A DNA stretch of 64,000 nucleotides, taken from NCBI GenBank assembly GCA_903877135.1, contig CAIRCN010000056.1, positions 1 through 64,000 on the forward strand. The letters are read 5' to 3'. The translations under genes were made by a program, and so were the position numbers. Of this stretch, positions 14,196-60,637 are shown piece after piece (the stretch's first letter is position 1; every line of letters begins with the position of its first letter). A model generated the notes under the pieces. That model searched no databases, had not been told where the DNA came from, and saw nothing but the letters and a program-made list of their open reading frames with translations. This DNA comes from an uncultured Opitutia bacterium. GTDB taxonomy: Bacteria; Verrucomicrobiota; Verrucomicrobiia; Opitutales; Opitutaceae.

Positions 14196-16088
14196 TCAGG
14201 CGATTCCGCGCTCGAGCCAGGTATGCTGGCCGGCGACGATTTCCTGTGTGAGATCGTAGCCGTGCTGGTCAGCGTTGTGACCGACGCCGTAGAAATTCTG
14301 GTCGATGCGCGTCTGTGCCTGCGCGGCGAAGTCGTCCACGAGCGTCAGCACCTTCGCCTCGGCCTCGCCCTCCTTGATCAGCTTCTGCGCATAGACGCAG
14401 CTGGCCGAGATGGCGAAGAGGTCGGCGCCGATGTCGGCCAGGCGGCCGAGCAGCACCTGGCGTTTCTCCAGCTTCGGGCCGAATTTCACCATCTGGTGGA
14501 AGAGCGTGCGGGCGAGCCGGCGGCTGAGCGCCGCAACGCGGTTGAGGTGCGCGGCGAGGTGCGGGTGCATGCCGGCCGGTGCGCCGCCGCGCGGGAGCCA
14601 CTGCGCGGGATACCAGGTGAGGTAGAAACCCGCCGCCTTGAACGCACTGCGGATGCGCTCACCCCACGGACGCTCGGAGTTGAGTGCAATGCCAGCAATC
14701 TTCAGGTGTGGGTCGAGCGCCTCGCGCATGATGAAGAGGCGCATGATTTCGGAGGAACCCTCGAAGATTGTCGCCACTCGGTTGTCGCGCATCATGCGCT
14801 CGACCGGGTGTGGCTTTTCGCCGCGGGCTTTCAACGACTGCACGTTTTCGTAGCCGCGGCCGCCGCGGATCTGCATGACGTCGTCGAGGCACATCCACGC
14901 CTTCTCGGTGCCCCACATCTTGCACATCGAGGCTTCGAGGCGGATGTCGGCCTTCTTGTCGCGGTCCACGATGCGCGAGGTGGCGATGAGCATCGCCTCC
15001 ATCGCAAACGCGTGGGCGGCGATGCGGCGGATCTTGTCCGCGACGGCGGCGTGTTTGCCGATGGGCACGCCCCACTGGATGCGTTCGCCGCCCCACTCGC
15101 GCGCGATGGCGAGGGATTTTTTCGCCATGCCGAGCGATGACGCGGGGATGGAGAGCCGGCCGGCGTTGAGGGTGGAGAGCGCGACCTTTAGGCCGCGGCC
15201 CTCGCCGCCGACGATGTTGGCCTTGGGCACGCGGACGTTGGTGAAGCGCATGACGCCGTTGTAGAGCGCGTGCAGGCCCATGAACTGGCAGCGGTGCACG
15301 GTCTCGATGCCAGGCGAATTCGCTTCGACGACGAAGGTGGTGATCTGCGTGCGCGGTTTGCCGTCCACCATCTTTGGCGGCGTCTGCGCAGCGACGATGA
15401 AGAGGCCGGCGCGCGTGCCGTTGGAGCACCAGAGCTTGTCGCCGGTTATGAGAAAATTGTCGCCGTCGGCGACCGCCTTGGTCTGCATGCGCGCGGGGTC
15501 GGAACCGACGCCCGGCTCGGTGAGTGCGAACGCTGACAACTCCCCGCCAGCGACGCGCGGGAGGAATCGTTTCTTCTGTTCGTCGGTGCCGAAGAGCACC
15601 AGCGGCTGCGCCACGCCGACTGACTGATGCACAGAAATGTGCGCAAACGTGTTCATGCAGTGGCTCGCGATGAGCGTGCAGGCGCGGCAGTAGGTCGTCT
15701 GCGAGAAGCCGAGCCCGCCGTAGGCCTGGGGCACCTTGATGCCGTAGGCACCGAACCGCGCGAGGCCGGTCATTACGACGTCGGGGATTTCGCCGGTGCG
15801 GTCGATCTCGTCGGCATCGACGTGCGTGGTGAGGAACGCCGCGAGCTCGGCGAGAAACTTGTCGGCGCGCTCCTTTTCGGGAGAGGCAACCTCGGTCAAC
15901 GGATGGAGTTTTTCAGGGCGGAAGCGACCCATGAACAGGTGCGCGACGAAGCTGATGTCGTCGTGCGATTCGCGGGCGGCCTCAGTGACCTGGAGGGCGG
16001 CGCGCTGGCCCTCGTTCATCTTGGACATGTCGATAACCGAGCGGCCATCGTCGGGTTTGGGTGCGGTGGAGTGCGAAGCTTCTGCCAT
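14196..16088 (-). CDS. Acyl-CoA dehydrogenase family protein
   Basis: A 630-residue flavoenzyme, longer than typical short-chain acyl-CoA dehydrogenases (about 380) and close to FadE- or very-long-chain-type enzymes with an extra C-terminal helical region. The N-terminal helical domain is at about 75-185. The beta domain has FALTEPGVGSDPARMQT. The C-terminal helical domain has GGRGYENVQ and TIFEGSSEIMRLFI. Catalytic Glu is probably in 'IFEGSSEI' as in related families. It should introduce a trans-2 double bond into acyl-CoA, passing electrons to ETF. The start at 16088 gives MAEASHST; the longer open frame reads through the oxidoreductase gene in another frame and is not real. Confidence 0.92.
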   Translation of the reverse strand: MAEASHSTAPKPDDGRSVIDMSKMNEGQRAALQVTEAARESHDDISFVAHLFMGRFRPEKLHPLTEVASPEKERADKFLAELAAFLTTHVDADEIDRTGEIPDVVMTGLARFGAYGIKVPQAYGGLGFSQTTYCRACTLIASHCMNTFAHISVHQSVGVAQPLVLFGTDEQKKRFLPRVAGGELSAFALTEPGVGSDPARMQTKAVADGDNFLITGDKLWCSNGTRAGLFIVAAQTPPKMVDGKPRTQITTFVVEANSPGIETVHRCQFMGLHALYNGVMRFTNVRVPKANIVGGEGRGLKVALSTLNAGRLSIPASSLGMAKKSLAIAREWGGERIQWGVPIGKHAAVADKIRRIAAHAFAMEAMLIATSRIVDRDKKADIRLEASMCKMWGTEKAWMCLDDVMQIRGGRGYENVQSLKARGEKPHPVERMMRDNRVATIFEGSSEIMRLFIMREALDPHLKIAGIALNSERPWGERIRSAFKAAGFYLTWYPAQWLPRGGAPAGMHPHLAAHLNRVAALSRRLARTLFHQMVKFGPKLEKRQVLLGRLADIGADLFAISASCVYAQKLIKEGEAEAKVLTLVDDFAAQAQTRIDQNFYGVGHNADQHGYDLTQEIVAGQHTWLERGIA

Positions 16089-16252
16089 GGGGATACGGCG
16101 CGGCCTATAGCCGCTTTGAGGGTTGTGCGACCGGCGGGGTGCAGGTCGCGGAGTTTGTTTGCGGCGACTCAACTCCAAGCGCCGACGCAGGTCAACGCCC
16201 CCGCAGCCGGCAGTCGCAACCAACAGCCGCCAGCAATTCGCCGTAAAGAAAC

Positions 16253-17413
16253 CTAATCCTCGCCGGACGCCGGCCCGCCCAGATCGGGCACCGCCAATTG
16301 CACGCCTCCGCGCTCGGCCGACTCGTGTGCGATTAGGCCGGGGATCATGTAGCGCGCCGCGGCCCAGACGTGGTTGGGCGGCGGATCGTCGCCGCTGACG
16401 CACGCCTTCACAAAGTCGTCCACGAGGAACTGGTGCGCGCCCCAGTGGTTGTTGGGCAGCCCGGCAAACGCCGCCGGCAGCCGCGCCACATCCTGCACCG
16501 CCGCCGTGCCACCATAGAAGCCCGGCCGCAACGTGAGGATGTCGTCGAGCCGCTTCGTGTCCTCGAAGCCCTTGCCAATGACAACCCGGCCGGCCTGCGT
16601 ATACTCGAAACTGGCCTCGGTGCCGCACACCGTCATGAACTCGCCGCCGGGATGGCCAACGCGGCGGAATTCGTTGATGCGTGCCGCCGCACCGTCGCTC
16701 ATGGCGAAGAGTGCCGTCTCGTTGCTGAAGGCGTTGCGATATTTGTTCACAGCCGGGTCGTAGATGCCGTCGGGATGCCGGTCTCGCCAACCGAGGGCCG
16801 ACACGCGCGTCATGTGCGCACCAGTGACGCCTATTACCTGGCTCGTCGTGTGCGTCGGGTAGTGCATCGGTGGCTCGCCGGCGAGTGCCTCGAACTTGTC
16901 GCCGGTGCGTGCCTTGATGATACCGCGCGAGTCGATGCTCTTGATGTCCCAGTCGTGATGGTAGCTCGCCTCCGCGTAGGTGATGTCGCCAAACCCGCCG
17001 CGCCGATAGTGCTCCCGGCACCAAACGACGTGGGGATAATAGTAACTCGTCTCGCCCATCATATAGATGCGTCCCGTCTGCTCGACGGTGCGGACGAGCG
17101 CGGTGATTTCCTCCAGTGACACGCCACAGGGCACGGCGGAATAGACGTGCTTACCGGCCCGGAGGGCCTGGATCGCCTGCGGGCCGTGCATCCAGTGCTG
17201 GGTGATGATCGCTACCGCGTCGACGTCGGTGCCGAGGATGTCGTCGAGTGAGGGACAGGTGCACGCGATACCAAAGCGGTCCGCCGTGACGCGCAGTTTC
17301 GCGGCGTCGAGGTCGCAAAGCACGACCTCGTGGACCAGCGGATGCGCCTTGAACAGGGGAATGAAGCTCTGGGCAAACTGCCCGGTGCCGACCATGCCGA
17401 TTTTGATACTCAT
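16253..17413 (-). CDS. Gfo/Idh/MocA family oxidoreductase
   Basis: A 386-residue NAD(P)-dependent dehydrogenase acting on a sugar or cyclitol. The Rossmann fold is at 1-125 (IGMVGTGQFAQSFIPLF), with the helix-starting substitute for EKP at AVPCGVSLEE, which departs from the common EKPxA motif. The C-terminal alpha/beta domain binds substrate (YYYPHVVWCREHY, HHDWD). The start codon overlaps the stop of the DUF4091 gene (ATGA), so the two are probably translationally coupled. The pair suggests release of a sugar from a glycan outside the cytoplasm and oxidation inside. The exact substrate cannot be read from the sequence. Confidence 0.92.
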   Translation of the reverse strand: MSIKIGMVGTGQFAQSFIPLFKAHPLVHEVVLCDLDAAKLRVTADRFGIACTCPSLDDILGTDVDAVAIITQHWMHGPQAIQALRAGKHVYSAVPCGVSLEEITALVRTVEQTGRIYMMGETSYYYPHVVWCREHYRRGGFGDITYAEASYHHDWDIKSIDSRGIIKARTGDKFEALAGEPPMHYPTHTTSQVIGVTGAHMTRVSALGWRDRHPDGIYDPAVNKYRNAFSNETALFAMSDGAAARINEFRRVGHPGGEFMTVCGTEASFEYTQAGRVVIGKGFEDTKRLDDILTLRPGFYGGTAAVQDVARLPAAFAGLPNNHWGAHQFLVDDFVKACVSGDDPPPNHVWAAARYMIPGLIAHESAERGGVQLAVPDLGGPASGED

Positions 17414-25058: not shown

Positions 25059-26837
25059 TCAGTGCCGGGCGCGCATAAAAACCATCGCGATGAAGAACAG
25101 GACCACCTGCACGGCCACAATAACGCCGATGATGAGCCAAATTTGCCGCGGGCCGCGCGACACCTGCGGCGCGCGGAGATGCAGGTGGCGGTTGGTCTGG
25201 TCGACCGTCTCATAATCGTCGAGGTCGCGCTTCATTTCCGCGGCGCTGGCGTAGCGGCGGGCCGGGTCACGCTCGAGGGCGTGGAGCATGATCTCCTCGA
25301 TGACTGGCGTAAGGTTGGCGTTCAGTTGGCGCGGCGCCACGGGATCGCCGGTGACGCGGGCGTTCATCACGACGTAGGGGCTTTCGCCCGCGAACGGCGT
25401 GGAACCGGTGGTCATCTCATAAAGAATCGCTCCGAGGCTGTAGATGTCGGTGCGGTGGTCGCCGCGTTTGCCCTTCACCTGCTCTGGCGCCATGTAGTCG
25501 GGCGTGCCCATCGTGGGGGAAAAGCCGACGAAGGTGAGCCGGCGCGCCTGCTTCACGCCGGCAATGCCGAAGTCGAACAGGCGCAGGCTGCCGTCGCGGC
25601 ACACCATGATGTTCTGGGGCTTCAGGTCGCGATGGGTGATGCCGTTTGTGTGGAGGTAATCGAGCGCGCTGCAGATTCGGCTCGCATATTGGGCCGCCAG
25701 CGCTTCCGGGAGCGGTCGGCGCTCGCCGAGCAGATGGGCCAGCGTTTCGCCATCGAGAAACTCCATGACCAGATACGGCCGGCTTTTCGGCCGGTCCACC
25801 TTCACGACCTTGAGCACCGCCGGATGATTGAGGCGCGTGCCAATTTCCTCCTCCCGCTTGAACCGTTCGAAGCCGGCAACATCGCTCTCCAACGCCATGA
25901 GCGGCACCTTGACGGCGACGCTCTGGCCGGTCTGGCGGTCGTTAGCCTTGAAGATCGACGCCATGTTGCTGCGGGCAATCAGATCGGTGAGTTCGAAGCG
26001 GTCGTCTAGGACCTGCCCCGGGGCCATTTCTCCGAGACCGGCAAGGTTTGGGGTCGCAGAACGCGACGGCGAAGACGAATGCACGACTCTTTCCCAGTCA
26101 CGCACTGCGATAATCTGCAAGGAAATGTTGTCGTCGCTGCCACGTTTCTCAGCCAGCGCAACCAACTCGCGGCAGGCGTCGTAAGGATGATGGCGGACGA
26201 CGATCTCGCGAATCTCCTCGTCAAGCACGTAGGCGTGCAAGCCATCCGTGCAATGCACGACAAAATCCCCGTGATGGAGAAACTGCATGGTTACATCGGG
26301 TTGGCAGAAAGGCTCAAGCCCGACACTGCGGGTGAGCTGGCTGCGCTGCGGACTCGCCATCGCCTGCCGCTCCAGCATGAGGCCGAGTTTGACCGGCAGG
26401 GCGTTGGCGATATGATCCGACGTCAAGCGTTGAATCGTCTGCCGGCGAATGTGATAGGCTCGGGAATCGCCCACGTGCGCGACGGACACAGTTTGATTGC
26501 GAAACAGCGCGGCCACGAGCGTTGTCGCCATCGGTCCGCGGCGATCGGCTTGCGCGGTTTCGTTGATCTTCGCAGACGCCGCGGAAAACGCCCCGCGAAG
26601 GATTGCATAGGGATTGAGGTCGGGTGAAGCGCCGCGGAAAACGCGCAACACCTCGTCGACCGCAAGGCGGCTGGCGACCTCGCCGCGATCATAGCCTCCA
26701 ACGCCATCGGCCAGCACTGCGATGCTCCCCTGTTTTTCCCGCTCGAGCGGATCGTCGGGCTCCCAGAAATCGAGCGAGTCTTCGTTGATCTCGCGGACCG
26801 GACCCGTAGTGGTAAGCCGGGCGTAGCGGAGGCGCAT
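25059..26837 (-). CDS. PP2C phosphatase - Ser/Thr protein kinase fusion, membrane anchored
   Basis: A 592-residue signalling protein with both phosphatase and kinase. The PP2C domain (1-250) has metal-binding acidic residues in NEDS (19-22), DGVGG (44-48), HVGDSRAYH (121-129), TDGL (198-201) and GSDDN (233-237). The kinase domain (280-560) has VAVK (Lys310), HRDLKPQN (Asp404), DFG (422-424) and APE (450-452). The glycine-rich loop is replaced by LIARSNMASIFKA, an unusual P-loop that lacks the Gly residues. A single membrane helix (about 567-590) ends the protein. Fusions of this kind are known in Verrucomicrobia and related phyla. It is 80 bp downstream of a permease gene, likely the same transcript. 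Confidence 0.9.
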   Translation of the reverse strand: MRLRYARLTTTGPVREINEDSLDFWEPDDPLEREKQGSIAVLADGVGGYDRGEVASRLAVDEVLRVFRGASPDLNPYAILRGAFSAASAKINETAQADRRGPMATTLVAALFRNQTVSVAHVGDSRAYHIRRQTIQRLTSDHIANALPVKLGLMLERQAMASPQRSQLTRSVGLEPFCQPDVTMQFLHHGDFVVHCTDGLHAYVLDEEIREIVVRHHPYDACRELVALAEKRGSDDNISLQIIAVRDWERVVHSSSPSRSATPNLAGLGEMAPGQVLDDRFELTDLIARSNMASIFKANDRQTGQSVAVKVPLMALESDVAGFERFKREEEIGTRLNHPAVLKVVKVDRPKSRPYLVMEFLDGETLAHLLGERRPLPEALAAQYASRICSALDYLHTNGITHRDLKPQNIMVCRDGSLRLFDFGIAGVKQARRLTFVGFSPTMGTPDYMAPEQVKGKRGDHRTDIYSLGAILYEMTTGSTPFAGESPYVVMNARVTGDPVAPRQLNANLTPVIEEIMLHALERDPARRYASAAEMKRDLDDYETVDQTNRHLHLRAPQVSRGPRQIWLIIGVIVAVQVVLFFIAMVFMRARH

Positions 26838-26863
26838 GGTGGGGTTGGAAAGGAAATGGCCCC

Positions 26864-26881
26864 GCGGCACGGAAGTGCCGC
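26864..26881 (-). other. Hairpin between permease and kinase genes
   Basis: A perfect 7-bp stem GCGGCAC (26864-26870) / GTGCCGC (26875-26881) closes a 4-base loop. No T-run follows on the minus strand, so it is more likely an mRNA processing or stability element than a terminator. Confidence 0.45.
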
Positions 26882-51000: not shown

Positions 51001-51840
51001 TTACTTCAGTTCCGGCCAAGTTGGCGCGTTGCCCGTGAGCTCGGTGAGCAGTCGCCGGGTGGCGGCGAGCGCGGTGATCGTCGCCGCGCGCAGCGAGTCG
51101 GCGTCGAGCCGCACCTCAAACCGCACCGTCGCGAGTTCGCCGGACGCAAGCAGTCGCTCGACCCGTCGTCCGTCGGGAAATGAAATCTGGCCGTGCCGCA
51201 CCCGCAGCTCGTGCAAGAGCCGGAAATTCGTCTCGATCACGGAACGGTGCAGCCAGCGTTGCGCCGCCACAAACTCACCGCGTGCGATCTTGCTCAGGAC
51301 CGACACCGCGTCCACGTATGCAATTTCGCAGATCGTGACGGCCTCCTCGTCGGTGAGGTGTGCCAGCGGCACTTCCGCCACCGCGCGGGAGTAGAAACGC
51401 TGCCAGCCCGGACCGCCTTTCAGCACCTTCTGACCAAAGCTCATCACGAGCGCGAATTCGCCGAGACCGCGGCGAATCCCCGCCACCCGCCGGTGCAATC
51501 CCAGCGTGAACGCGATGCGCCCCAGCAGCAGCCGTCGGTAGGGCACGATAACGAAGTCCGCTTCTCCGCCTGAGAAAAGCGCCGTCACTTTCTGCGCGCC
51601 GCCGAAAACCGGTCGCACCGCGTAGGCCTGCAACTCCTGTCTCGCCAGCTGCGCCGTCCACGCCCGGTTGAGATAGAGTTCGGGCCGCGTTGTGACGATT
51701 TGCAGATCGATGTCGGACCACGGGTCGGCCGGTTGGCCTTCGCCGGAGAGCGTTCGCGCATGCGAGCCAAACACGGCCGCGACACGGACGTCGGCCGCAC
51801 CCCTCAACCATTGTTGCAGGGACTCGAACAGCGTCAGCAT
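51001..51840 (-). CDS. Nucleotidyltransferase-fold protein (AadK-like)
   Basis: A 279-residue protein with a polymerase-beta-like NTase core. AAVFGSHARTLS contains the Gly-Ser pair (25-26) and DPWSDIDLQIV the metal-binding Asp43 and Asp45. The C-terminal helical region resembles aminoglycoside 6-adenylyltransferases, but the match is remote. Its start overlaps the end of the preceding kinase-like gene by 7 bp. Last gene of the signalling operon; it could adenylylate a protein or small molecule. Confidence 0.78.
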   Translation of the reverse strand: MLTLFESLQQWLRGAADVRVAAVFGSHARTLSGEGQPADPWSDIDLQIVTTRPELYLNRAWTAQLARQELQAYAVRPVFGGAQKVTALFSGGEADFVIVPYRRLLLGRIAFTLGLHRRVAGIRRGLGEFALVMSFGQKVLKGGPGWQRFYSRAVAEVPLAHLTDEEAVTICEIAYVDAVSVLSKIARGEFVAAQRWLHRSVIETNFRLLHELRVRHGQISFPDGRRVERLLASGELATVRFEVRLDADSLRAATITALAATRRLLTELTGNAPTWPELK

Positions 51841-53621
51841 TGCCGGACCGAAATGAGAATCTCCGTCCCCTCTAGCCCGGGACCGGCGTGGATTTCACCG
51901 TGATGCAGGCGGAGGATTTCCTTCGCGAGAAATACCCCGATGCGCCCCTGGTTGGGCACCGCCTCCTCCGCGGGTTCGGGCAGTATGCCTTCAAGCTCCA
52001 AATTACCGCCTTTCAGCGACAGCAGCGCGGTCAGTTCGGAGCCCGTGCCCGTCGAGCGCACCTGTAGGGCGAGTTCACGCGACCCGAGTTCGCCGCGGTT
52101 TTCGATGATGACCTCAAACAGGGCGCGCAGCGCGAATTCGAGCAATGTCTGGCTGACCGCTAGCAGCACCGGCTCGGATGGAATTTCGACCCGTAGCCCG
52201 AGCGAATGCCCCAGAGATTTCGCCAGTTCGGCGATATCCTCCGGCTTCATAGTCACCTCATGCAGCATCTGCATGACGCCAAGCTGGCGGTTCAGTTTTT
52301 CCAACTTGGTGATGTCACCCTTGACGGTTTCAAGCAACGGCGGTGGCAGCGATTGTGCAGGACCGGCCTGGCGAAACATCGCCAGTGAGACGAGTGCGTT
52401 GCCCAGTTCGTGGCTGAGGGTGAGCGCGAGTTCACGCAGGAGTTGGCGGCGGTTGGCGCGCTGCTGCCCGGTTGCATCGTGAACTTCCGAACTCGCCTCC
52501 TCCCAGAAAGCCCACACACCGCCGGTCTCGGCGATGAGACCAGCGCTGGCGCGAAATGGCTGCGCATCGGTCGGAGCAGCGCGACAAACCTCGTGCGACT
52601 GGCGGGCCCGGCCGATGAGGTCGCGCACCACCAGCGGCACATGTCGCGGTGCAGCCTCATCCGCACCCAGCACCAAAGTGCCGGGCAGATATTTCTCGCC
52701 AAGCCGATGCTGCTCCGCGAGCGAGTGCAGCCGGCCAAGTTGGGCCGATTTGGCGAGCAGGTGGCGCAGCAGCCGCGCAAAAAATACGGCGCGCATGCGG
52801 TCGGGCTCGTCGTAGGACTGGCCGTCGTCCCGCACGCCGAGCGCGATGAGCCCGAGCAAGCGGCCGTTGTCGTGGATCGGCACGAGCAGCCGCGCGCCCC
52901 ACATGGCGAGCCGGTTGCGCACCGCCAGCTCCGCGACCGGATCGGCCGGGCTGTCCCAGTTGGTGCCGTCAATCACAGCCGGATGCCGCTCGAGAAACGC
53001 CACCATGGGGTCGTCGGCCGGAAAAAAAGACGTGCCGCGATCGGCCCGGAACCCTTCGGCTTCGCGCAGAAAAAACACCGCGTGGGAAGCGCGCAGCAAC
53101 TGTCGCGAGGCCCGCCGAAACTCGGCGATGAGCCGGTCGCGCGTATCGAGATTCTCCACCGCGCCTTCCAGAAAGTCCCACAGTTCGGCCGGGTCGCCCG
53201 CGCCGGCGGCCACCGGTCGCACCGCCGGACGGGCGGACTCTACCCGCCGCGCCTTATTGGCCAGCAATTCCACCATCGACTGCTTTTCCGCCACTTCCTC
53301 CAGCAACGGCAAAAACTCGCGCAAGCGTGTGGCACTCTCCTCGTAGGATAGATAAACCCTCGCTCGCCCGCTCTGGCGCGCCTGCTCAAACGGCAGGCTC
53401 CGCGGCTCGCCGACGTAAATCGTCGGGCTCCGGACGAAAGTGGCAGGCAGCTGCGCCTCCGCCACGGCATCGAGCACGACCACCGCGGAGACACTCGCCG
53501 GCGGACCGGAGGAAAAAGCCGGCGCGGCGAGCCGGACCGCGGTGCGCCCCGGGGGCAGCTGGCGTTCCCACGCCGCCGCCAGCTCCGCATCAGCCGTCGC
53601 TAGGAGGAAAAGGGTTGGCAT
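51834..53621 (-). CDS. GAF protein with degenerate histidine-kinase domains
   Basis: A 595-residue cytoplasmic protein. Residues 1-115 look like a receiver-type fold without acidic pocket. A GAF domain covers about 160-290. A dimerisation helix has LALTLSHELGNAL (His404), then an ATP-lid-like tail with NQGRIGVFLAKEILRLHHGEIHAG. The standard N box and DxGxG/GxGxGL motifs are missing, so ATP use is doubtful. It could be a phosphotransfer or scaffold partner for the other kinases in the operon. The gene overlaps the 7TM kinase start by 22 bp. Confidence 0.8.
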   Translation of the reverse strand: MPTLFLLATADAELAAAWERQLPPGRTAVRLAAPAFSSGPPASVSAVVVLDAVAEAQLPATFVRSPTIYVGEPRSLPFEQARQSGRARVYLSYEESATRLREFLPLLEEVAEKQSMVELLANKARRVESARPAVRPVAAGAGDPAELWDFLEGAVENLDTRDRLIAEFRRASRQLLRASHAVFFLREAEGFRADRGTSFFPADDPMVAFLERHPAVIDGTNWDSPADPVAELAVRNRLAMWGARLLVPIHDNGRLLGLIALGVRDDGQSYDEPDRMRAVFFARLLRHLLAKSAQLGRLHSLAEQHRLGEKYLPGTLVLGADEAAPRHVPLVVRDLIGRARQSHEVCRAAPTDAQPFRASAGLIAETGGVWAFWEEASSEVHDATGQQRANRRQLLRELALTLSHELGNALVSLAMFRQAGPAQSLPPPLLETVKGDITKLEKLNRQLGVMQMLHEVTMKPEDIAELAKSLGHSLGLRVEIPSEPVLLAVSQTLLEFALRALFEVIIENRGELGSRELALQVRSTGTGSELTALLSLKGGNLELEGILPEPAEEAVPNQGRIGVFLAKEILRLHHGEIHAGPGLEGTEILISVRQC

Positions 53622-55621
53622 GGAAAAATCACTCGGAAGATCGCGCCGCGCCCGGAAACAGAGGAATCCACCGTGATGGACGCGTTCAGCCCGGTCAGAA
53701 TGTCGCTGCAGATGGCCAGGCCAAGTCCAAACCCGGAAGACTTGGTGGACTGAAACGGCTGGAACAGCCGCGGCCGGATCCCAGGGGCGATGCCGGGGCC
53801 GCTATCCTCGACCGCCATTTCCAAACCAGTGGAGACATTGCGGGTCGAGATCTTCACCCACCGGTCGCCCTCGCATTTCTCCACGGCTTGGATGGCGTTG
53901 AAGCAGAGGTTGAGCAGCACCTGTTTCGCCGCGGTGACATCGGTGCAGACGCGGTCGGGGCGCGCCTGCAAGTCGGACTCGACGCGGATGTGCTTGTCCA
54001 GTGCCTTGGTCGCCACCAGTTCGATGCTCGCGCTCAGCACCGGGTGCAAATCAACCATCTGTGCCGTGTAGGTGCGGGGAGCCGCGAGGTCGAGCAACTG
54101 TTCGGTCAGCCGGTCGATGCGCGTGACCTCCTCGCCGATGAGGTGGAAAAATTTCTCCCGAAACACAGGGTCCTGGTGGTGCTTTGGCAGCAATTGCACG
54201 AACGTCTTGATCGTGACGAGCGGGTTGCGAATCTCGTGGGCGAGGCTAGCGCCGAGGAGGCCGACCGTGGCGAGTTGCTCGGCATGCTGGGCTTTCACCG
54301 AAAAATGTGCGCGCTCCAGCGCACTCTCGATGATGGAAGCCAGCTCGAGCAACTGCGTCACCTGCGGAAAAGTGAAGGGCCGGCGGGAAGCCGGGATGCC
54401 GACGCCGACCAACACGGTGAGAGTCGGCCCTTCGCCAATCACCAGCGCGCCGAGGCCATGCTCCGCGAGAAACCGCGCCAGAGCCTCGCGCTCCACCGTG
54501 GACCGCTCGCGGGCCAACCGCTCCGGAGTGGCCCAGCGGAGCAAGCGCATCGACCGGGCAATCGTGCAGTCTTCTGGCAGCACAATGGCCCCGCCGCGTA
54601 GGGCTCCCTTCGTGCCCGAGAGCAGAAGCGCGTGGTCGGTTTGCCCCCACCCCTTGAGAATTTCCAGGAAGGATTGCTCCAGGCTGTCGACCCGCGATTC
54701 GCGCCGGGCGACAGCAAAGGCCGCCTGCCGGGCGGCTGTTTCCTGTGGGTAGAAATGAAAGATGCGGTTGAGCCAGCCATTGAGCGTTGCGGCAAACCAC
54801 AGGGCAATCGCCGTCGTCGCAAAAAAGGCCAGCGGCTCCGGCAGCAGGGTGCCGAACAAGTCGTCGAGCACATAGGCTGCACCCATCACGATCGCGACCA
54901 GCATAAATTTTTGCAGACCGACGAGGATGATCTGCCGGGCATCGAAGATCCGGCTGGTCGTGATCGCGACCACCATGCTCGTGTAGAATAGCAAAATCAC
55001 GAGCGGCTGCAGCCCGATGAGCCAGGGCAGCGCCAGCAACGCGCGCAGCGCCATGAGCAACAGCACGGTGACCGCAGCGGCGCTGCCACCTAGCAGGACA
55101 ATCTGCAATTCCAACCGGCTTACCCCGGTCCGCGCGCGCATCTTCAGCACCGTCGCATGGCATTGCAGCGCATAGATAAGCACGAGGCCGACGTAGTAGA
55201 GATGATAGCCGGTGCCATATACCTGCTGGGCCGCGGCGCGGAGCGTCGAATGCGCGGGGATAAACCACTCCGTGAGCGTGACAGCAGAGAGCATCGCCAT
55301 CGCGAGCAACCACCAGCGGCGGTGGACCATCACTGCCATCAGCGTGGGACGGGCGCCCACGATACTGTCTTTGATCAGCCACAATTGCATCGGGAAGAAA
55401 GCCCCGACCGCGGTGGTGGCCCGCAGCCAGAAAAGCCCTTCGCTACTCGTAGTGGCCTGGTGCAGCATGAACAGCCACACCGCCACGTGCACTGACGCCG
55501 AGAAGAACGCGCGGTTGATCATGCGGTGCGGATTCGACCAGACCGCGACAAAGCCCACTCCGACAGCGGCAGTCGCCGCCACCACGGTGGAACTGAACGT
55601 CAATGTGCCAGCACCAAGCAT
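53600..55621 (-). CDS. Membrane histidine kinase with 7-8 TM helices
   Basis: A 673-residue sensor kinase. Membrane helices occupy about 8-290. A GAF-like region follows (about 310-440). The DHp box is GASLAHEIRNPLVTIKTF (His462), and the ATPase domain has NLCFNAIQAV, DSGPGIAPG and GFGLGLAIC, all intact. It resembles PEP-CTERM/PrsK-type kinases in layout. It should sense a membrane signal and phosphorylate the receiver of the gene at 56810. It overlaps the ketosynthase-like gene's end by 22 bp. Confidence 0.9.
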   Translation of the reverse strand: MLGAGTLTFSSTVVAATAAVGVGFVAVWSNPHRMINRAFFSASVHVAVWLFMLHQATTSSEGLFWLRATTAVGAFFPMQLWLIKDSIVGARPTLMAVMVHRRWWLLAMAMLSAVTLTEWFIPAHSTLRAAAQQVYGTGYHLYYVGLVLIYALQCHATVLKMRARTGVSRLELQIVLLGGSAAAVTVLLLMALRALLALPWLIGLQPLVILLFYTSMVVAITTSRIFDARQIILVGLQKFMLVAIVMGAAYVLDDLFGTLLPEPLAFFATTAIALWFAATLNGWLNRIFHFYPQETAARQAAFAVARRESRVDSLEQSFLEILKGWGQTDHALLLSGTKGALRGGAIVLPEDCTIARSMRLLRWATPERLARERSTVEREALARFLAEHGLGALVIGEGPTLTVLVGVGIPASRRPFTFPQVTQLLELASIIESALERAHFSVKAQHAEQLATVGLLGASLAHEIRNPLVTIKTFVQLLPKHHQDPVFREKFFHLIGEEVTRIDRLTEQLLDLAAPRTYTAQMVDLHPVLSASIELVATKALDKHIRVESDLQARPDRVCTDVTAAKQVLLNLCFNAIQAVEKCEGDRWVKISTRNVSTGLEMAVEDSGPGIAPGIRPRLFQPFQSTKSSGFGLGLAICSDILTGLNASITVDSSVSGRGAIFRVIFPCQPFSS

Positions 55622-56802
55622 GCGTTTGTGCCCGACAGACCGTGGGCGTTGACCAGCGTTGTGCGATGCGAAATAAAACGTGTCTGTGAGCTGAGGTTAA
55701 GCGGACAAGCCGGATCGGGGAACTGCCAGTTGACCGTCGGGGGCACTACGCCGGCCCCGAGACACAGGGCCGCACAACCCACCTGCATGGCGCCGCCGGC
55801 ACCAAGCGGATTGCCTATCGCGCCCTTGAGCGACACCGCCGGAATCGTTGCCAGCTCCGGTCCGAATATCGCTGCCAGCGCACGACACTCAGCGGCATCG
55901 ATCAGCTTGTGCCCAGGACCCCAGGCGTTGATGCATTCGATATTGCGCGGGTTCAGGCCAGCGTTGGCCAGCGTGAGGCGGATTGACTCGGTGAGTCCGC
56001 CCGCTGGCTCGTCCGCCGGATCCGAGGCGAACGCGTAGCCATCAATGTAAGCGTAGCCGGGCCGTGGACTTTCCTCCGGCTCAAGCACGATCACACACGC
56101 ACCCTCGCCGATGACCCCCGTGGTGCGCCACAAATCGAACGGCCGGCTCTGGCGCTCCGGGTTCTCAGGATTGCCCGGGGCCAGGCCCGCGAGTTTCAAT
56201 TCGATCATAGGGTGGAAAAACAGCGGCGCCTCCGTGCCACCGCAAACCGCGATGTCAGTCTCACCGTTCGCCACCATCGCCGCCGCATGCCCAATGGCGT
56301 CCGCCCCCGCGCAGCAAGCGCTCTGCAACGCCAGCGTCCGTGTCGTGCCGCCGATCGCTTCACCAATCGCTCCGCCGATCGAACTCACTGACGCCGAAAA
56401 GACTGATGTTGGCAGTCCGCTCGCCGGTCCTTTGCGAAGGATCATATCCACGCCCTTGTTGATCGCGCCAAAATCCATCAACGACGCACCCACAATCACT
56501 ACCGGTGACCGGCCAAGCAGTTCCGGCAGGCTCAGCCCCGCGTCTGCCACGGCAAGGGCCGCCGCTGCGAGCGCAAACTGCGTGTGCCGCGGCATGCGTT
56601 TGCTCGAAACCCCCGCCACATAGTTTTCGAGTTTAAAGTCCTTAACCTCAGCCGCGACAAACGACCCCGCCTCCTCGGGAAACCGCTTGACCCGCACCAC
56701 CCGGCTCACGGGTTCAAGGATACCCCGCAGAAATGCCTCGCGCCCGATGCCGGCCGGTGTCACCGGACCGATGCCCGTGATCTTTACGCGACGGCGCTTC
56801 AT
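55600..56802 (-). CDS. Beta-ketoacyl synthase-fold protein lacking catalytic His residues
   Basis: A 400-residue thiolase-fold protein of KAS I/II type. The nucleophile Cys163 is kept in QSACCAGADAIG. The first His (NAHG in relatives) is Trp294 (NAWGPGHK) and the second His (KxxxGHxxGA) is Asn331 (SLKGAIGNPLGAG); Lys326 remains. The G-loop is NAHGLSGTN. Condensation and decarboxylation of malonyl-ACP are therefore unlikely. It may bind or transfer an acyl group, or act structurally. It lies inside a kinase operon without ACP or other fatty acid genes. The chosen start at 56802 follows 7 bp after the receiver-kinase stop. Confidence 0.88.
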   Translation of the reverse strand: MKRRRVKITGIGPVTPAGIGREAFLRGILEPVSRVVRVKRFPEEAGSFVAAEVKDFKLENYVAGVSSKRMPRHTQFALAAAALAVADAGLSLPELLGRSPVVIVGASLMDFGAINKGVDMILRKGPASGLPTSVFSASVSSIGGAIGEAIGGTTRTLALQSACCAGADAIGHAAAMVANGETDIAVCGGTEAPLFFHPMIELKLAGLAPGNPENPERQSRPFDLWRTTGVIGEGACVIVLEPEESPRPGYAYIDGYAFASDPADEPAGGLTESIRLTLANAGLNPRNIECINAWGPGHKLIDAAECRALAAIFGPELATIPAVSLKGAIGNPLGAGGAMQVGCAALCLGAGVVPPTVNWQFPDPACPLNLSSQTRFISHRTTLVNAHGLSGTNACLVLAH

Positions 56803-56809
56803 CGCGCGC

Positions 56810-57949
56810 TCACGCTGTCGCCGGAAAGACGATCCGCACGGTCGTGCCCTTGCCGGGCGTCGACTCAAGGCTGATGGTCGCTCCGTGCGCGCCGAGCAGG
56901 TGCCGGCAGATGCTCAGTCCCAGGCCCGTGCCGCTCTGCTTGTTGCTAAAGCCGCCCTTCATGGCCCGGCGCACATGGTCCGCCTCCATCCCCGCGCCGT
57001 TGTCCGTCACAATCATTTCGATGTTGCCAGCGCTGCGCGCGACCGAGACGAGGACCTGCTTCGCCCCTGCCTCCAGTGCGTTTTTGAACAGATTTTGAAA
57101 CACGCGCATGAGCTCGAATTTCGATCCGCGGATGAAAGCGGAGGGCAGGCCGGTGAACTGCACCGCCACCTCCCCGAAAAACACCACTTGCCGGACCTCA
57201 TGCGCCACCTGCACCACATCCAACCGACTGAACGCGATCGCCTGTTTCGAGGCTTGCCGCCAGTTTTCTGAGAGATGGTGGCAATACTCCGCCGCCTTCT
57301 CCACGATGGCCGCGTAGTCGTGCAACCGCCGCCCATGCACCGGATCGAGCGCGGCCACGGCGCGGGCCTCCTCGATCATCAGCGTGGCATAACCCACAAC
57401 AACCGTGAGTGGATTGTTGAGATCGTGCACGAGTTCCACCGAGGCGCGCGCCTGCCAGATCTGCGGCTCGTTCTGGTCAATCTCGCGCTTGAGCGCGGCG
57501 TTCAGTTCCCGCACTTCCTCGGCCAGCTTGGCCTGATGGCGCCGCCACCGCGTCGCCTCGGCCTGTTTGCGCACCGCATCAATCAGCTCCGCGACATCGG
57601 GCGGCTTGCGCAAATACTGGTTCGCGCCGGCCACCATCGCCTGTTGGGCGGTGAGCAAAGTGCCATAGCCCGTCAGCATCACCACCGCCACGATGGGATC
57701 GATTTTGCGCAACTCCTCCAACGCCCGGATGCCGTCCATCTCCGGCATGCGGATGTCGAGCACCACCACGGCGTAGGCCTGCGCCCGGATCTTCGCCAGC
57801 GCCTCGGTCGCGCGCTCCGCCGTGTCCACGGCAAATTCGGACGAAAGGGTGAACGCGATCGACTCGCGCGGGCCGTATTCGTCATCGACCACGAGCACAC
57901 GGGGTTTCGTGCTGATCGCCTGAGGTGCGAGGGCTGTTTCGGTTAACAT
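56810..57949 (-). CDS. Receiver - histidine kinase hybrid
   Basis: A 379-residue cytoplasmic protein. An N-terminal receiver domain has VVDDE, the phospho-acceptor Asp65 in VVLDIRMPEMDG, Thr93 and Lys115. A helical linker leads to a DHp box with HDLNNPLTVVVG (His175), and the ATPase domain has NLFKNALEAGA, DNGAGM and GTGLGLSIC. Receiver-first order differs from classical hybrid kinases. It is the first gene of the five-gene minus-strand operon. The start at 57949 gives the receiver its usual N-terminus. It is divergent from rmuC. Confidence 0.9.
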   Translation of the reverse strand: MLTETALAPQAISTKPRVLVVDDEYGPRESIAFTLSSEFAVDTAERATEALAKIRAQAYAVVVLDIRMPEMDGIRALEELRKIDPIVAVVMLTGYGTLLTAQQAMVAGANQYLRKPPDVAELIDAVRKQAEATRWRRHQAKLAEEVRELNAALKREIDQNEPQIWQARASVELVHDLNNPLTVVVGYATLMIEEARAVAALDPVHGRRLHDYAAIVEKAAEYCHHLSENWRQASKQAIAFSRLDVVQVAHEVRQVVFFGEVAVQFTGLPSAFIRGSKFELMRVFQNLFKNALEAGAKQVLVSVARSAGNIEMIVTDNGAGMEADHVRRAMKGGFSNKQSGTGLGLSICRHLLGAHGATISLESTPGKGTTVRIVFPATA

Positions 57950-58068
57950 ACGGCGTGGGGAGAGCTTAAGACCGGTTTCGCTGGGCAAAAAATAGCCTGG
58001 GAACATCCGCTGTTTGCCGTGCGGGCCGGGGCCTGTCAAGGAACGCATCGGGAATTGATTTGCACTAA

Positions 58069-59373
58069 ATGACCTCCAATCTCCCTCCCGTGATTATCAC
58101 CACTGTCGCCCTGCTGTCGGCTCTGCTGACCGGTGCGTTTGTCTGGCTGTTCTTGCGCGGCCGTCAGGCCGCGATCTGCGAGCGCCTCCGCGCCAAGGAG
58201 GAGGAAAACGCCCGGCTCGCGGCCGACATCGCCGAGTTGCGCACCGAAGCCGCGCGGCTCTCCTCGCTGAACACCGAGTTCTCCACCCAGCTTGCCGCCG
58301 AGCGTGACGCCCAAACCCGCCTAACCAACGAGTTCAAGGCCCTCTCTGCCGACGCCCTCAGCCGCAACAACACCTCCTTCCTCGAACTTGCCCGCGAAGC
58401 GTTCACCAAGCTCCAGCAGCAGTCCACCGGCGATCTCGAGAAACGCCAGCAGGCCATCGACGCCCTCGTGAAACCCCTCCGGGAATCGTTGGAAAAAGTG
58501 GACACCAAGATTGGCGAGATCGAAAAAGCCCGGGCTTCCGCCTACGGCCAGCTCTCCGAGCAGCTCAAGTCCCTCGGCACCTCGCAAAATCAGTTGCAGG
58601 CCGAGGCCGCCAAACTCTCCACCGCCCTCCGCTCCACCACCACCGCCGGCACCTGGGGCGAACTGCAGCTCCGCCGCGTCGTCGAGATGTCTGGCATGAC
58701 CGCCTACTGCGATTTCACCGAACAGCAGACCGCCGGCGCCCTTCGCGCCGACCTCGTCGTGCGCCTCCCCGGCGGCCAGCAGATCGTCGTCGACGCCAAG
58801 GCGCCCAACGACGCCTACCGCGAGGCCGCCGGCGCCTCCGACGAAAACGTCCGCACCGCCAAGCTCGCCGAGCACGCCGCCAAGGTTCGCGGCCACATCG
58901 ACGCCCTCGGCGCGAAAAACTATTGGGAGCAATTCCAGCCCTCGCCCGAGTTCGTCGTGCTCTTCCTGCCCGGCGATCAGTTCCTCTCCGGCGCCCTCCA
59001 GTCCGACCCCACGCTCATCGACCGCGCCATCACGAAGAAAGTCCTGCTCGCCACTCCCGCCACCCTCATCGCTCTGCTCAAAGCCGCCGCTTACGGTTGG
59101 CGTCAGGAATCCGTCTCGAAAAACGCCGAAGCCATCGCCGCCCTCGGCCGCGAACTCCACGACCGCGTCGCCACCTTCGCCGAGCACATCGAAAACGTCG
59201 GCACCGGCCTCAAGTCCGCGCTCACCCACTACAACAAGGCCGTCGGCTCCTACGAAAGCTCGCTCCTGCCCGGCGCGCGCAAACTCTCCGAGCTCGGAGC
59301 CAAGGGCGCGAAGGAACTCCCTGCCATCATCCCGCTCGAAATCGCCCCGCGCGACGTCGCGAAGCGGCCCTGA
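58069..59373 (+). CDS. rmuC: DNA recombination protein RmuC
   Basis: A 434-residue protein implicated in limiting recombination at repeats. A membrane helix (7-28) is followed by a coiled coil (about 35-190), then the RmuC core (WGELQLRRVVEMSGM, VVDAKAPNDAY and FLPGDQFL), which is nuclease-like. Start at 58069. Length is typical. Confidence 0.93.
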   Translation: MTSNLPPVIITTVALLSALLTGAFVWLFLRGRQAAICERLRAKEEENARLAADIAELRTEAARLSSLNTEFSTQLAAERDAQTRLTNEFKALSADALSRNNTSFLELAREAFTKLQQQSTGDLEKRQQAIDALVKPLRESLEKVDTKIGEIEKARASAYGQLSEQLKSLGTSQNQLQAEAAKLSTALRSTTTAGTWGELQLRRVVEMSGMTAYCDFTEQQTAGALRADLVVRLPGGQQIVVDAKAPNDAYREAAGASDENVRTAKLAEHAAKVRGHIDALGAKNYWEQFQPSPEFVVLFLPGDQFLSGALQSDPTLIDRAITKKVLLATPATLIALLKAAAYGWRQESVSKNAEAIAALGRELHDRVATFAEHIENVGTGLKSALTHYNKAVGSYESSLLPGARKLSELGAKGAKELPAIIPLEIAPRDVAKRP

Positions 59374-59395
59374 TCTCTCGCGCCTCTATCTCCCG

Positions 59396-59752
59396 ATGTC
59401 CGACTCCGCGCTGCTTTCTGGCCATTGGCATTTGATTAAAGCCGAGCTGGGCGGCGAGAATTCCCCGGAGCTGCTCGCGCTCTGCGTCGAACTCGAATTC
59501 GACGCCGTCACCTACGTGGTCCGCTTCGCCGGCGAAATCGCCGACCACGGCATCTACACACTCGCCGGCTCCGCGCTCACTCTCACCGGAACGGCAGGTC
59601 CGAACGAAGGCCGCATCATTCCGTGCCTCTGGCAATGCATCGGCGACCGTCTCCGCGTCTGCTACGGCCTCGACGGCACCGCCCCCGCCGCGTTCGCCAC
59701 CACCGCCGGCTCGCCCCACTACCTCGCCACCTACCGCCGCAAGGCGACGTGA
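59396..59752 (+). CDS. TIGR03067-like small protein
   Basis: A 118-residue protein resembling the TIGR03067 family of planctomycetes and verrucomicrobia. It has LSGHWHLIKAELGGE near the start, HGIYTLAGSALTL in the middle and a C-terminal ATYRRKAT. It has no signal peptide. Predicted lipocalin-like beta barrel; function unknown. It begins 22 bp after rmuC. Confidence 0.7.
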   Translation: MSDSALLSGHWHLIKAELGGENSPELLALCVELEFDAVTYVVRFAGEIADHGIYTLAGSALTLTGTAGPNEGRIIPCLWQCIGDRLRVCYGLDGTAPAAFATTAGSPHYLATYRRKAT

Positions 59753-59761
59753 CAGTTCGTT

Positions 59762-59797
59762 TGTCATTGCGAGGAACGGCAGGCGACGAAGCAATCC
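59762..59797. repeat. TGTCATTGCGAGGA-type dispersed palindromic repeat
   Basis: The run TGTCATTGCGAGGAACGG then AGGCGACGAAGCAATCC matches the widespread 'CATTGCGAGGAGCGAAGCGACGAAGCAATC' element found in many environmental genomes. ATTGC (59766-59770) pairs with GCAAT (59791-59795). It lies between two genes and does not interrupt either. Confidence 0.75.
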
Positions 59798-59815
59798 ATC
59801 TGTCACTCACAAGCC

Positions 59816-60637
59816 ATGGACCTCTCCGGCCTCTTCATCTACCCCGTCAAATCGCTCCGCGGCCTCGCGGTGGAATCGGCGACGGTGGATGCGCTCGGCT
59901 TGGTCGGCGACCGGCGTTTCCTGGTGGTCGATGAGCAGGGCCAGTTCCTCACTCAACGCACTTTGCCGCGGATGGCGCTGATCGAGACCGCCCTCACCGC
60001 CCGCGACCTCGTGCTCCGCGCGCCCCACAGCGGCTCTTGCGCCGTGCCTCTCGTCGACGCCACTCCCGCGCCGCTGCTCCAAGTCCGCGTCTGGAAAAGC
60101 GAGGGACTGCTCGCCGAGGACTGCGGCGTCGAGATCGCCGTCTGGCTGTCGGAATTTCTGCGCACGCCATGCAGTCTCGTCCGCATCGGCGCGGCGTTTC
60201 AGCGACCGGTCCTGAAACCTTGCAAGGCGCGCCCCGGCGATTTGGTCAGCTTCGCCGACGGTTTTCCGTTCCTCCTCGCGAGCGAGGCGTCGCTCGCTGA
60301 CCTCAACGACCACCTCGTCGCGCGCGACGAGGACGCGCTCCCGATGGACCGTTTCCGCCCCAACCTCGTCGTGACCGGCTGCGCCGCCTTCGCCGAGGAC
60401 TGCTGGCCGCGCCTGCGGATCGGCGACATCGTATTTCGCGCCGGCGGCCCCTGCGGTCGCTGCGTGGTGACGACGACCGACCAACTCACTGCCGAACGCG
60501 GCAAGGAACCGCTCCGCACACTCGCGACCTACCGCCGCGACGCCACCGAACCCACCGACGTCAACTTCGGCCAGAACCTGATCCACGAGACGAAGTCCGG
60601 CACACTCCGAGTCGGCGATGCGGTGGAGCCGCTGTAA
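59816..60637 (+). CDS. MOSC domain protein (mARC-like)
   Basis: A 273-residue protein with an N-terminal MOSC_N beta-barrel (FIYPVKSLRGLAVESA) and a C-terminal MOSC domain (DRFRPNLVV, GPCGRCVVTTTDQ). The Cys in PCGRC is the probable molybdenum ligand as in mARC and YcbX. It could reduce N-hydroxylated substrates with a ferredoxin or flavodoxin. The C-terminal 2Fe-2S domain of some YcbX relatives is absent. Confidence 0.9.
   Translation: MDLSGLFIYPVKSLRGLAVESATVDALGLVGDRRFLVVDEQGQFLTQRTLPRMALIETALTARDLVLRAPHSGSCAVPLVDATPAPLLQVRVWKSEGLLAEDCGVEIAVWLSEFLRTPCSLVRIGAAFQRPVLKPCKARPGDLVSFADGFPFLLASEASLADLNDHLVARDEDALPMDRFRPNLVVTGCAAFAEDCWPRLRIGDIVFRAGGPCGRCVVTTTDQLTAERGKEPLRTLATYRRDATEPTDVNFGQNLIHETKSGTLRVGDAVEPL

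Follow-up and report, generated by a model that had tools for sequence, protein, structure and literature searches.

A ketosynthase-fold protein in a five-gene histidine kinase operon of Opitutaceae and its relation to a kinase-linked module of Verrucomicrobiota

The DNA analysed here, hereafter the window, is a stretch of 64,000 nucleotides from an uncultured Opitutia bacterium of the family Opitutaceae (GenBank assembly GCA_903877135.1, contig CAIRCN010000056.1, positions 1 to 64,000). At positions 51001-57949 it carries an operon of five minus-strand genes, in the order HYB-KAS-HK-GAFdHK-NT, that overlap or nearly touch one another: KAS starts 7 bases past the end of HYB, and every later gene overlaps its predecessor. 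An earlier note, made from the sequence alone, had described these five genes, and all of them are present, with coordinates and Pfam domains in agreement. The genes are as follows.

56810-57949, minus strand: HYB, a soluble receiver-histidine kinase hybrid of 379 amino acids (aa) with REC, HisKA and HATPase domains (Pfam; alignment of 19 orthologues).
55600-56802, minus strand: KAS, a ketosynthase-fold protein of 400 aa with an ATG start, the N and C domains of ketoacyl-synt and the residues Cys163-Trp294-Lys326-Asn331 (Pfam; alignment with solved FabF; 17 orthologues; tree).
53600-55621, minus strand: HK, a membrane histidine kinase of 673 aa with HisKA and HATPase domains (Pfam; orthologue motifs; homology to kinases of loci outside the family).
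51834-53621, minus strand: GAFdHK, a protein of 595 aa with a pseudo-receiver, a GAF domain, a PAS-like domain and a kinase core, of which Pfam detects the GAF domain (Pfam; motif comparison; structure model).
51001-51840, minus strand: NT, a nucleotidyltransferase of LinB/ANT(6) fold, 279 aa, with a weak Polbeta match, E 0.007 (Pfam; motif; structure model).

The best solved-structure match of KAS is a FabF (E 7e-51). Alignment with solved FabF (4ls5) places Cys163 and Lys326 at catalytic positions and Trp294 and Asn331 at the positions of the two catalytic His residues, exactly the assignment that the earlier note had made. Moreover, His298 occupies the place of the second Thr in the pantetheine motif TxT, and His387 lies directly before the gating loop; for both the TxT pair and this loop we assume the functions that they have in FabF. 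The codons concerned are these.

56314-56316, minus strand: Cys163, the nucleophile, kept in every relative read (orthologue alignments).
55921-55923, minus strand: Trp294, at the first catalytic His position (alignments with solved FabF and orthologues).
55909-55911, minus strand: His298, at the second Thr of TxT, invariant in Opitutaceae (alignments with solved FabF and orthologues).
55810-55812, minus strand: Asn331, at the second catalytic His position (alignments with solved FabF and orthologues).

Cys163, Trp294, His298, Lys326 and His387 are invariant in 24 KAS rows from Opitutaceae, and position 331 is Asn, Ser or Thr, never His, in the same rows; the Asn that had been singled out at this position is thus correct for the window, and what is constant in the family is the loss of the His. 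KAS shares with FabF the fold, the scaffold and the active-site Cys and Lys, but differs from it in the replacement of the first His (His1) by Trp and of the second (His2) by Asn, Ser or Thr, in the change of TxT to PxH and of the gate-loop residue to His, in its placement in a separate clade, and in being linked to kinases rather than to fatty acid synthesis. Judged by the established chemistry of FabF and FabH, the Cys-Trp-Asn protein of the window is most likely incapable of decarboxylative condensation. A housekeeping FabF can be ruled out, given that the genome has 5 other KAS genes, at 30-32% identity to the operon KAS, which falls in the separate clade; it also scores 229 bits against the NCBIfam fabF model, below the curated cutoff of 494 bits. 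Also ruled out are a fatty acid or polyketide cluster, no acyl carrier protein or fatty acid synthesis gene having been found among the 40 main open reading frames of the window that were scanned, as the earlier note had observed for the vicinity of the operon, and a chain length factor (KS-beta), since the Cys is invariant and the operon has no KS partner gene.

The two kinases with complete motifs, HYB and HK, have kinase and receiver motifs that are intact and invariant among orthologues. HYB is the most conserved member of the operon, with a mean column identity of 73% in the 19-orthologue alignment; HK has a hydrophobic N-terminal half and is homologous to kinases in loci outside the family that contain the Pfam HisKA_7TM region. 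In one metagenome-assembled genome (L038:11290-13280) the HK gene is spread over two frames, seen as two overlapping tblastn pieces, the product of a frameshift or an assembly error. GAFdHK had been described as a GAF protein with degenerate kinase motifs, which holds for its ATP-binding motifs and does not hold for its phosphoacceptor: all 15 Opitutaceae sequences lack the D motif, have a changed G motif and retain the H-box residues His404, the phosphoacceptor, and Asn408. Relatives outside Opitutaceae have an intact kinase core in 35 of 35 cases (HE[IV]xNP, DxGxG and GLG motifs). The structure model of GAFdHK (mean pLDDT, the predicted local distance difference test score, 79) has RetS among its fold matches, and the protein would fit either a Spo0B-like phosphotransferase or a RetS-like modulating pseudokinase, comparisons that we draw from general knowledge of these proteins. 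Like them it keeps a dimerization domain and a phosphoacceptor His beside a degenerate ATP domain; its sensor domains, however, differ.

As for NT, its motif GS...DxD...D is invariant in 13 sequences, and its structure model (pLDDT 88) matches LinB over the full length with Z 17.1 over 243 residues (root-mean-square deviation 3.1) and ANT(6)-Ib with Z 15.0, both exceeding the next group at Z ~10 among the matches listed. By this modelled fold, a small-molecule nucleotidyltransferase is the likeliest identity. NT shares with LinB and ANT(6) the full-length fold and the motif, but is only ~13% identical to them and sits in a signalling operon.

A set of 57 related genomes, which includes that of the window, has GAFdHK in 13 members and KAS and NT in 12 each, all of them belonging to one family. 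The gene order is identical in nearly all loci that are not cut by a contig end, mostly beside a divergent rmuC gene, and the operon is syntenic across a dozen or more Opitutaceae genera. Because the arrangement is found again at this breadth, its recurrence is far beyond chance, and a strain-specific artefact is ruled out by the synteny across genomes. Thus, the support that the earlier note had hoped for, conserved adjacency accompanied by the substituted His positions in many genomes, is what the family displays, and the adjacency is not limited to one genome or strain. In the genomes read, KAS and NT are present or absent jointly. The arrangement varies in some deep Opitutaceae, where an inverted NT lies between HYB and KAS or the HYB gene is located elsewhere.

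Class and phylum searches within Verrucomicrobiota recovered, in many families, KAS matches far stronger than ordinary FabF. Of 43 loci read outside Opitutaceae, 4 contain an ordinary FabF and 39 a KAS of the distinct type, the latter from 20 other family-level groups. By an automated rule, the gene next to KAS encodes a 7TM-type kinase homologous to HK in 37 of the 39; of the two loci that fail the rule, one is cut by a contig end and the other has a long overlap. A homologue of GAFdHK, the second kinase, is present in 36/39 loci, a divergent HYB in 33/39, a gene for a FadL-family outer-membrane protein in 27/39 and a gene for an NtrC-type regulator in 19/39, the last two counts being lower bounds, as several loci stop at contig ends. 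None of these five occurs in the 4 loci with ordinary FabF. Pfam analysis of representative proteins from these loci identified OMPP1/FadL/TodX (E 8e-63), HisKA_7TM, PAS, GAF and Sigma54_activat, and the consensus of the linked NtrC regulators retains GAFTGA. The window operon, with a KAS of the kinase-linked clade beside a 7TM-type kinase and a GAF kinase, belongs to this module, and unlike many of the outside loci it is without linked fadL and NtrC genes and a sigma-54-like promoter. NT is an Opitutaceae-specific addition outside the core of the module. The only recurrent partner genes that are consistent across the module loci are those for FadL and NtrC, methyltransferases and others being found in few loci; some families have a gene for an S-adenosylmethionine-dependent methyltransferase close to fadL-HYB (L088:5460-6254 and 6 other loci). 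A plasmid search returned only KAS matches below 40% identity, annotated as fabF or KAS-family. PrsK/PrsR of the PEP-CTERM system was considered as an identity for the regulatory pair and rejected, the scores lying below the NCBIfam cutoffs (98 vs 300 bits for the window HK, 383 vs 503 bits for the L088 regulator).

In a maximum-likelihood tree, all 63 kinase-linked KAS rows form one clade (support 100/99) apart from ordinary FabF, and the Opitutaceae proteins are nested within it on a long stem. The active-site Cys is retained in 39/39 outside loci. The first His position is occupied by His in 33, Tyr in 4 (family f30) and Asn in 2 (family f76), and the second by Asn in 32, Cys in 3, Ser in 2 and His in 2, the last being solely the f76 rows. 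Thus, the first His has been lost in three lineages, with the Cys nucleophile retained throughout. The f76 proteins (L120:8112-9359 and L121:8133-9548) read Cys-Asn-Arg-His, with His1 replaced by Asn, Lys by Arg and His2 kept, a third mode of alteration of the site. The ancestral kinase-linked KAS looks like a FabH-type Cys-His-Asn triad on a FabF-type scaffold; what each of the three residues does in FabH is described in PMC4807248. The double loss of His would then be a derived state, with His1 retained in the older form; the alteration of both sites, which the earlier note had emphasized, holds for Opitutaceae and not as a trait of the whole module. None of the loci read showed the opposite pattern, in which KAS homologues retain both His residues and lie in clusters for fatty acid or polyketide synthesis.

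The promoters of the two forms are different. Reading toward fadL, the region upstream of this gene has a -24/-12 sigma-54-like site (at least 9 of 12 positions) in 17/26 loci. Reading toward KAS, the same threshold is reached in 3/26 (Fisher p 1.4e-4), and among random 400-nt windows from the same loci the rate is 8%. Sites scoring 11 or 12 precede fadL in 5/26 loci vs 0.5% of random windows. These sites, together with the linked NtrC regulators that retain GAFTGA, suggest sigma-54 control of the fadL-HYB unit. No sigma-54 site was found upstream of the Opitutaceae operon, that of the window included. Here, TTGACA lies within 250 nt upstream of HYB in 21/25 loci (3% in shuffles), in most of them within CTTGACA and followed, after a 17-nt spacer, by CAAACA; in the window it takes the following form.

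58011-58039, minus strand: sigma-70-type operon promoter, TTGACA at 58034-58039, 17-nt spacer, CAAACA at 58011-58016 (conservation in Opitutaceae loci).

Given the absence of the sigma-54 site and the conservation of the TTGACA-type promoter in Opitutaceae, the promoter class appears to have switched between the older module and this operon. Just upstream of CTTGACA-N17-CAAACA there is a conserved GATGCG(T) stretch, a possible regulator site.

We propose, as an evenly balanced proposition, that the operon represents the form taken in Opitutaceae by a phylum-wide signalling module for acyl or other hydrophobic ligands, comprising an acyl-binding KAS, kinases, control of fadL and, in this family, NT as an effector. 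The FadL genes and the sigma-54-like sites upstream of them favor such a ligand. In its older form the module would sense compounds that are fatty-acyl or otherwise hydrophobic: KAS would load an acyl group on the invariant Cys and signal to the 7TM histidine kinase and to the soluble GAF/PAS kinase encoded by an adjacent gene; both kinases would phosphorylate the NtrC-type regulator, which via sigma-54 would activate the divergent fadL-HYB unit, with HYB serving as feedback or as a phosphate sink. In the lineage of the window, KAS would no longer condense and could act as a subunit that binds or transfers acyl groups, the second kinase might relay phosphate via its retained His or modulate the other kinases, a sigma-70-type promoter would drive the operon, and a small-molecule-type nucleotidyltransferase would have been recruited as effector. 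The more specific version, in which KAS is the cytoplasmic acyl receptor of the phosphorelay, acylation of its Cys sets kinase activity and FadL expression, and the Opitutaceae form is a pure sensor with NT as output, is put forward tentatively, as a possibility that falls somewhat short of even chances. The earlier note had proposed a signalling system joining an acyl-binding protein and an adenylyltransferase-like effector to a phosphorelay; the kinase linkage outside the family, FadL and the sigma-54-like sites speak for the former part, and the nucleotidyltransferase does not stand as a core component.

Several observations weigh against this proposal. FadL was not found in the Opitutaceae genome of the window, and as for an Opitutaceae orthologue of the module NtrC, all genomes searched yielded only paralogue-level matches of ~460 bits, which were left unassigned. 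Two genomes, G005 and G034, have HYB, HK and GAFdHK and lack both KAS and NT; KAS is therefore dispensable to the kinases. The substitution in the TxT pair suggests altered pantetheine binding, and the older Cys-His-Asn KAS may still be catalytic.

The chief rival of the acyl-sensor reading is that KAS is an enzyme producing a diffusible signal or modified lipid that the kinases sense, in the manner of PqsBC, the older triad condensing and the Opitutaceae form transferring acyl groups without decarboxylation. PqsBC, a condensing enzyme for the Pseudomonas quinolone signal, functions with an incomplete triad (PMC4807248). The Cys-His-Asn pattern of the older kinase-linked KAS is shared with FabH and chalcone-synthase-type enzymes, the Cys is invariant, and such a signal could enter through a FadL channel. 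However, His1 was lost in three lineages that kept the Cys, including f76, where the Lys is Arg, and no acyl carrier protein, CoA (coenzyme A) ligase or other biosynthetic gene recurs among the module loci. In contrast to FabH, chalcone-synthase-type enzymes and PqsBC, the kinase-linked KAS is FabF-like in sequence and scaffold, and the window protein is without His in its Cys-Trp-Asn site. We consider signal production unlikely, albeit the best placed of the alternatives.

Clearly less probable is the view that KAS and NT, although co-transcribed, are passengers whose metabolic roles are unrelated, the signalling unit being HYB-HK-GAFdHK alone. It would account for the two genomes that have just this unit and for the movement or inversion of NT in deep Opitutaceae, but not for the fixed position of KAS beside a 7TM kinase throughout the phylum, in 21 family-level groups, nor for an active site that changes in step with the module.

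In the remaining alternative the ligand is a non-acyl hydrophobic compound, such as an aromatic or an alkane, with KAS as a non-covalent receptor and the FadL-family protein as a TodX-like channel; we regard this as the most doubtful of the three. The outer-membrane protein is assigned to the whole OMPP1/FadL/TodX family, scoring 91 bits against the FadL equivalog, whose cutoff is 585 bits. TodX is a FadL-family channel, and channels of this family transport monoaromatic compounds (PMC7728783). Against a non-acyl ligand stand the family chemistry of KAS-fold proteins with a nucleophile, which bind acyl thioesters, and the Cys, which is never lost, as well as the lack of recurrent degradation genes. 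In the TodX/TodST toluene system, as in the module, a FadL-family channel is encoded together with sensor kinase genes; that system has no KAS, and the module differs from it in lacking degradation genes and in having a sigma-54/NtrC output.

The older module also resembles AtoS-AtoC and other NtrC-type sigma-54 systems in combining PAS kinases with an NtrC-type regulator; AtoSC controls the use of short-chain fatty acids. AtoS and AtoC are among the best NCBIfam matches of the module; the scores of 308 and 447 bits lie, however, below the curated cutoffs of 646 and 714 bits, and the module is distinguished by two kinases, HYB and KAS, with FadL as the apparent target. The earlier note knew of no described system with this gene set and, consistent with this, we found no description of such a KAS-FadL-kinase system in Verrucomicrobia in the searchable literature, outside which most subscription papers lie. 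If the proposal is true, the module would represent an undescribed, phylum-wide form of bacterial lipid sensing, in which the fold of a biosynthetic enzyme has been turned into a kinase partner, in a phylum with little-studied signalling. The three lineages that lost His1 and kept the nucleophile would offer a natural series for the conversion of an enzyme to a sensor. Furthermore, the FadL linkage and the sigma-54-like sites lead to the direct prediction that the kinases and NtrC control fadL.

With respect to the surroundings of the operon, the genes for rmuC, a small conserved protein of 118 aa and a MOSC protein (window 58069-60637) are divergent neighbors retained beside it in most Opitutaceae; the locus is thus an old and fixed position. 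An acyl-CoA dehydrogenase is encoded ~35 kb from the operon (window 14196-17024), in an open reading frame of 942 aa whose first 380 residues have no Pfam match. A single protein encoded at window 25059-26870 combines a PP2C phosphatase domain with a following Ser/Thr protein kinase domain.

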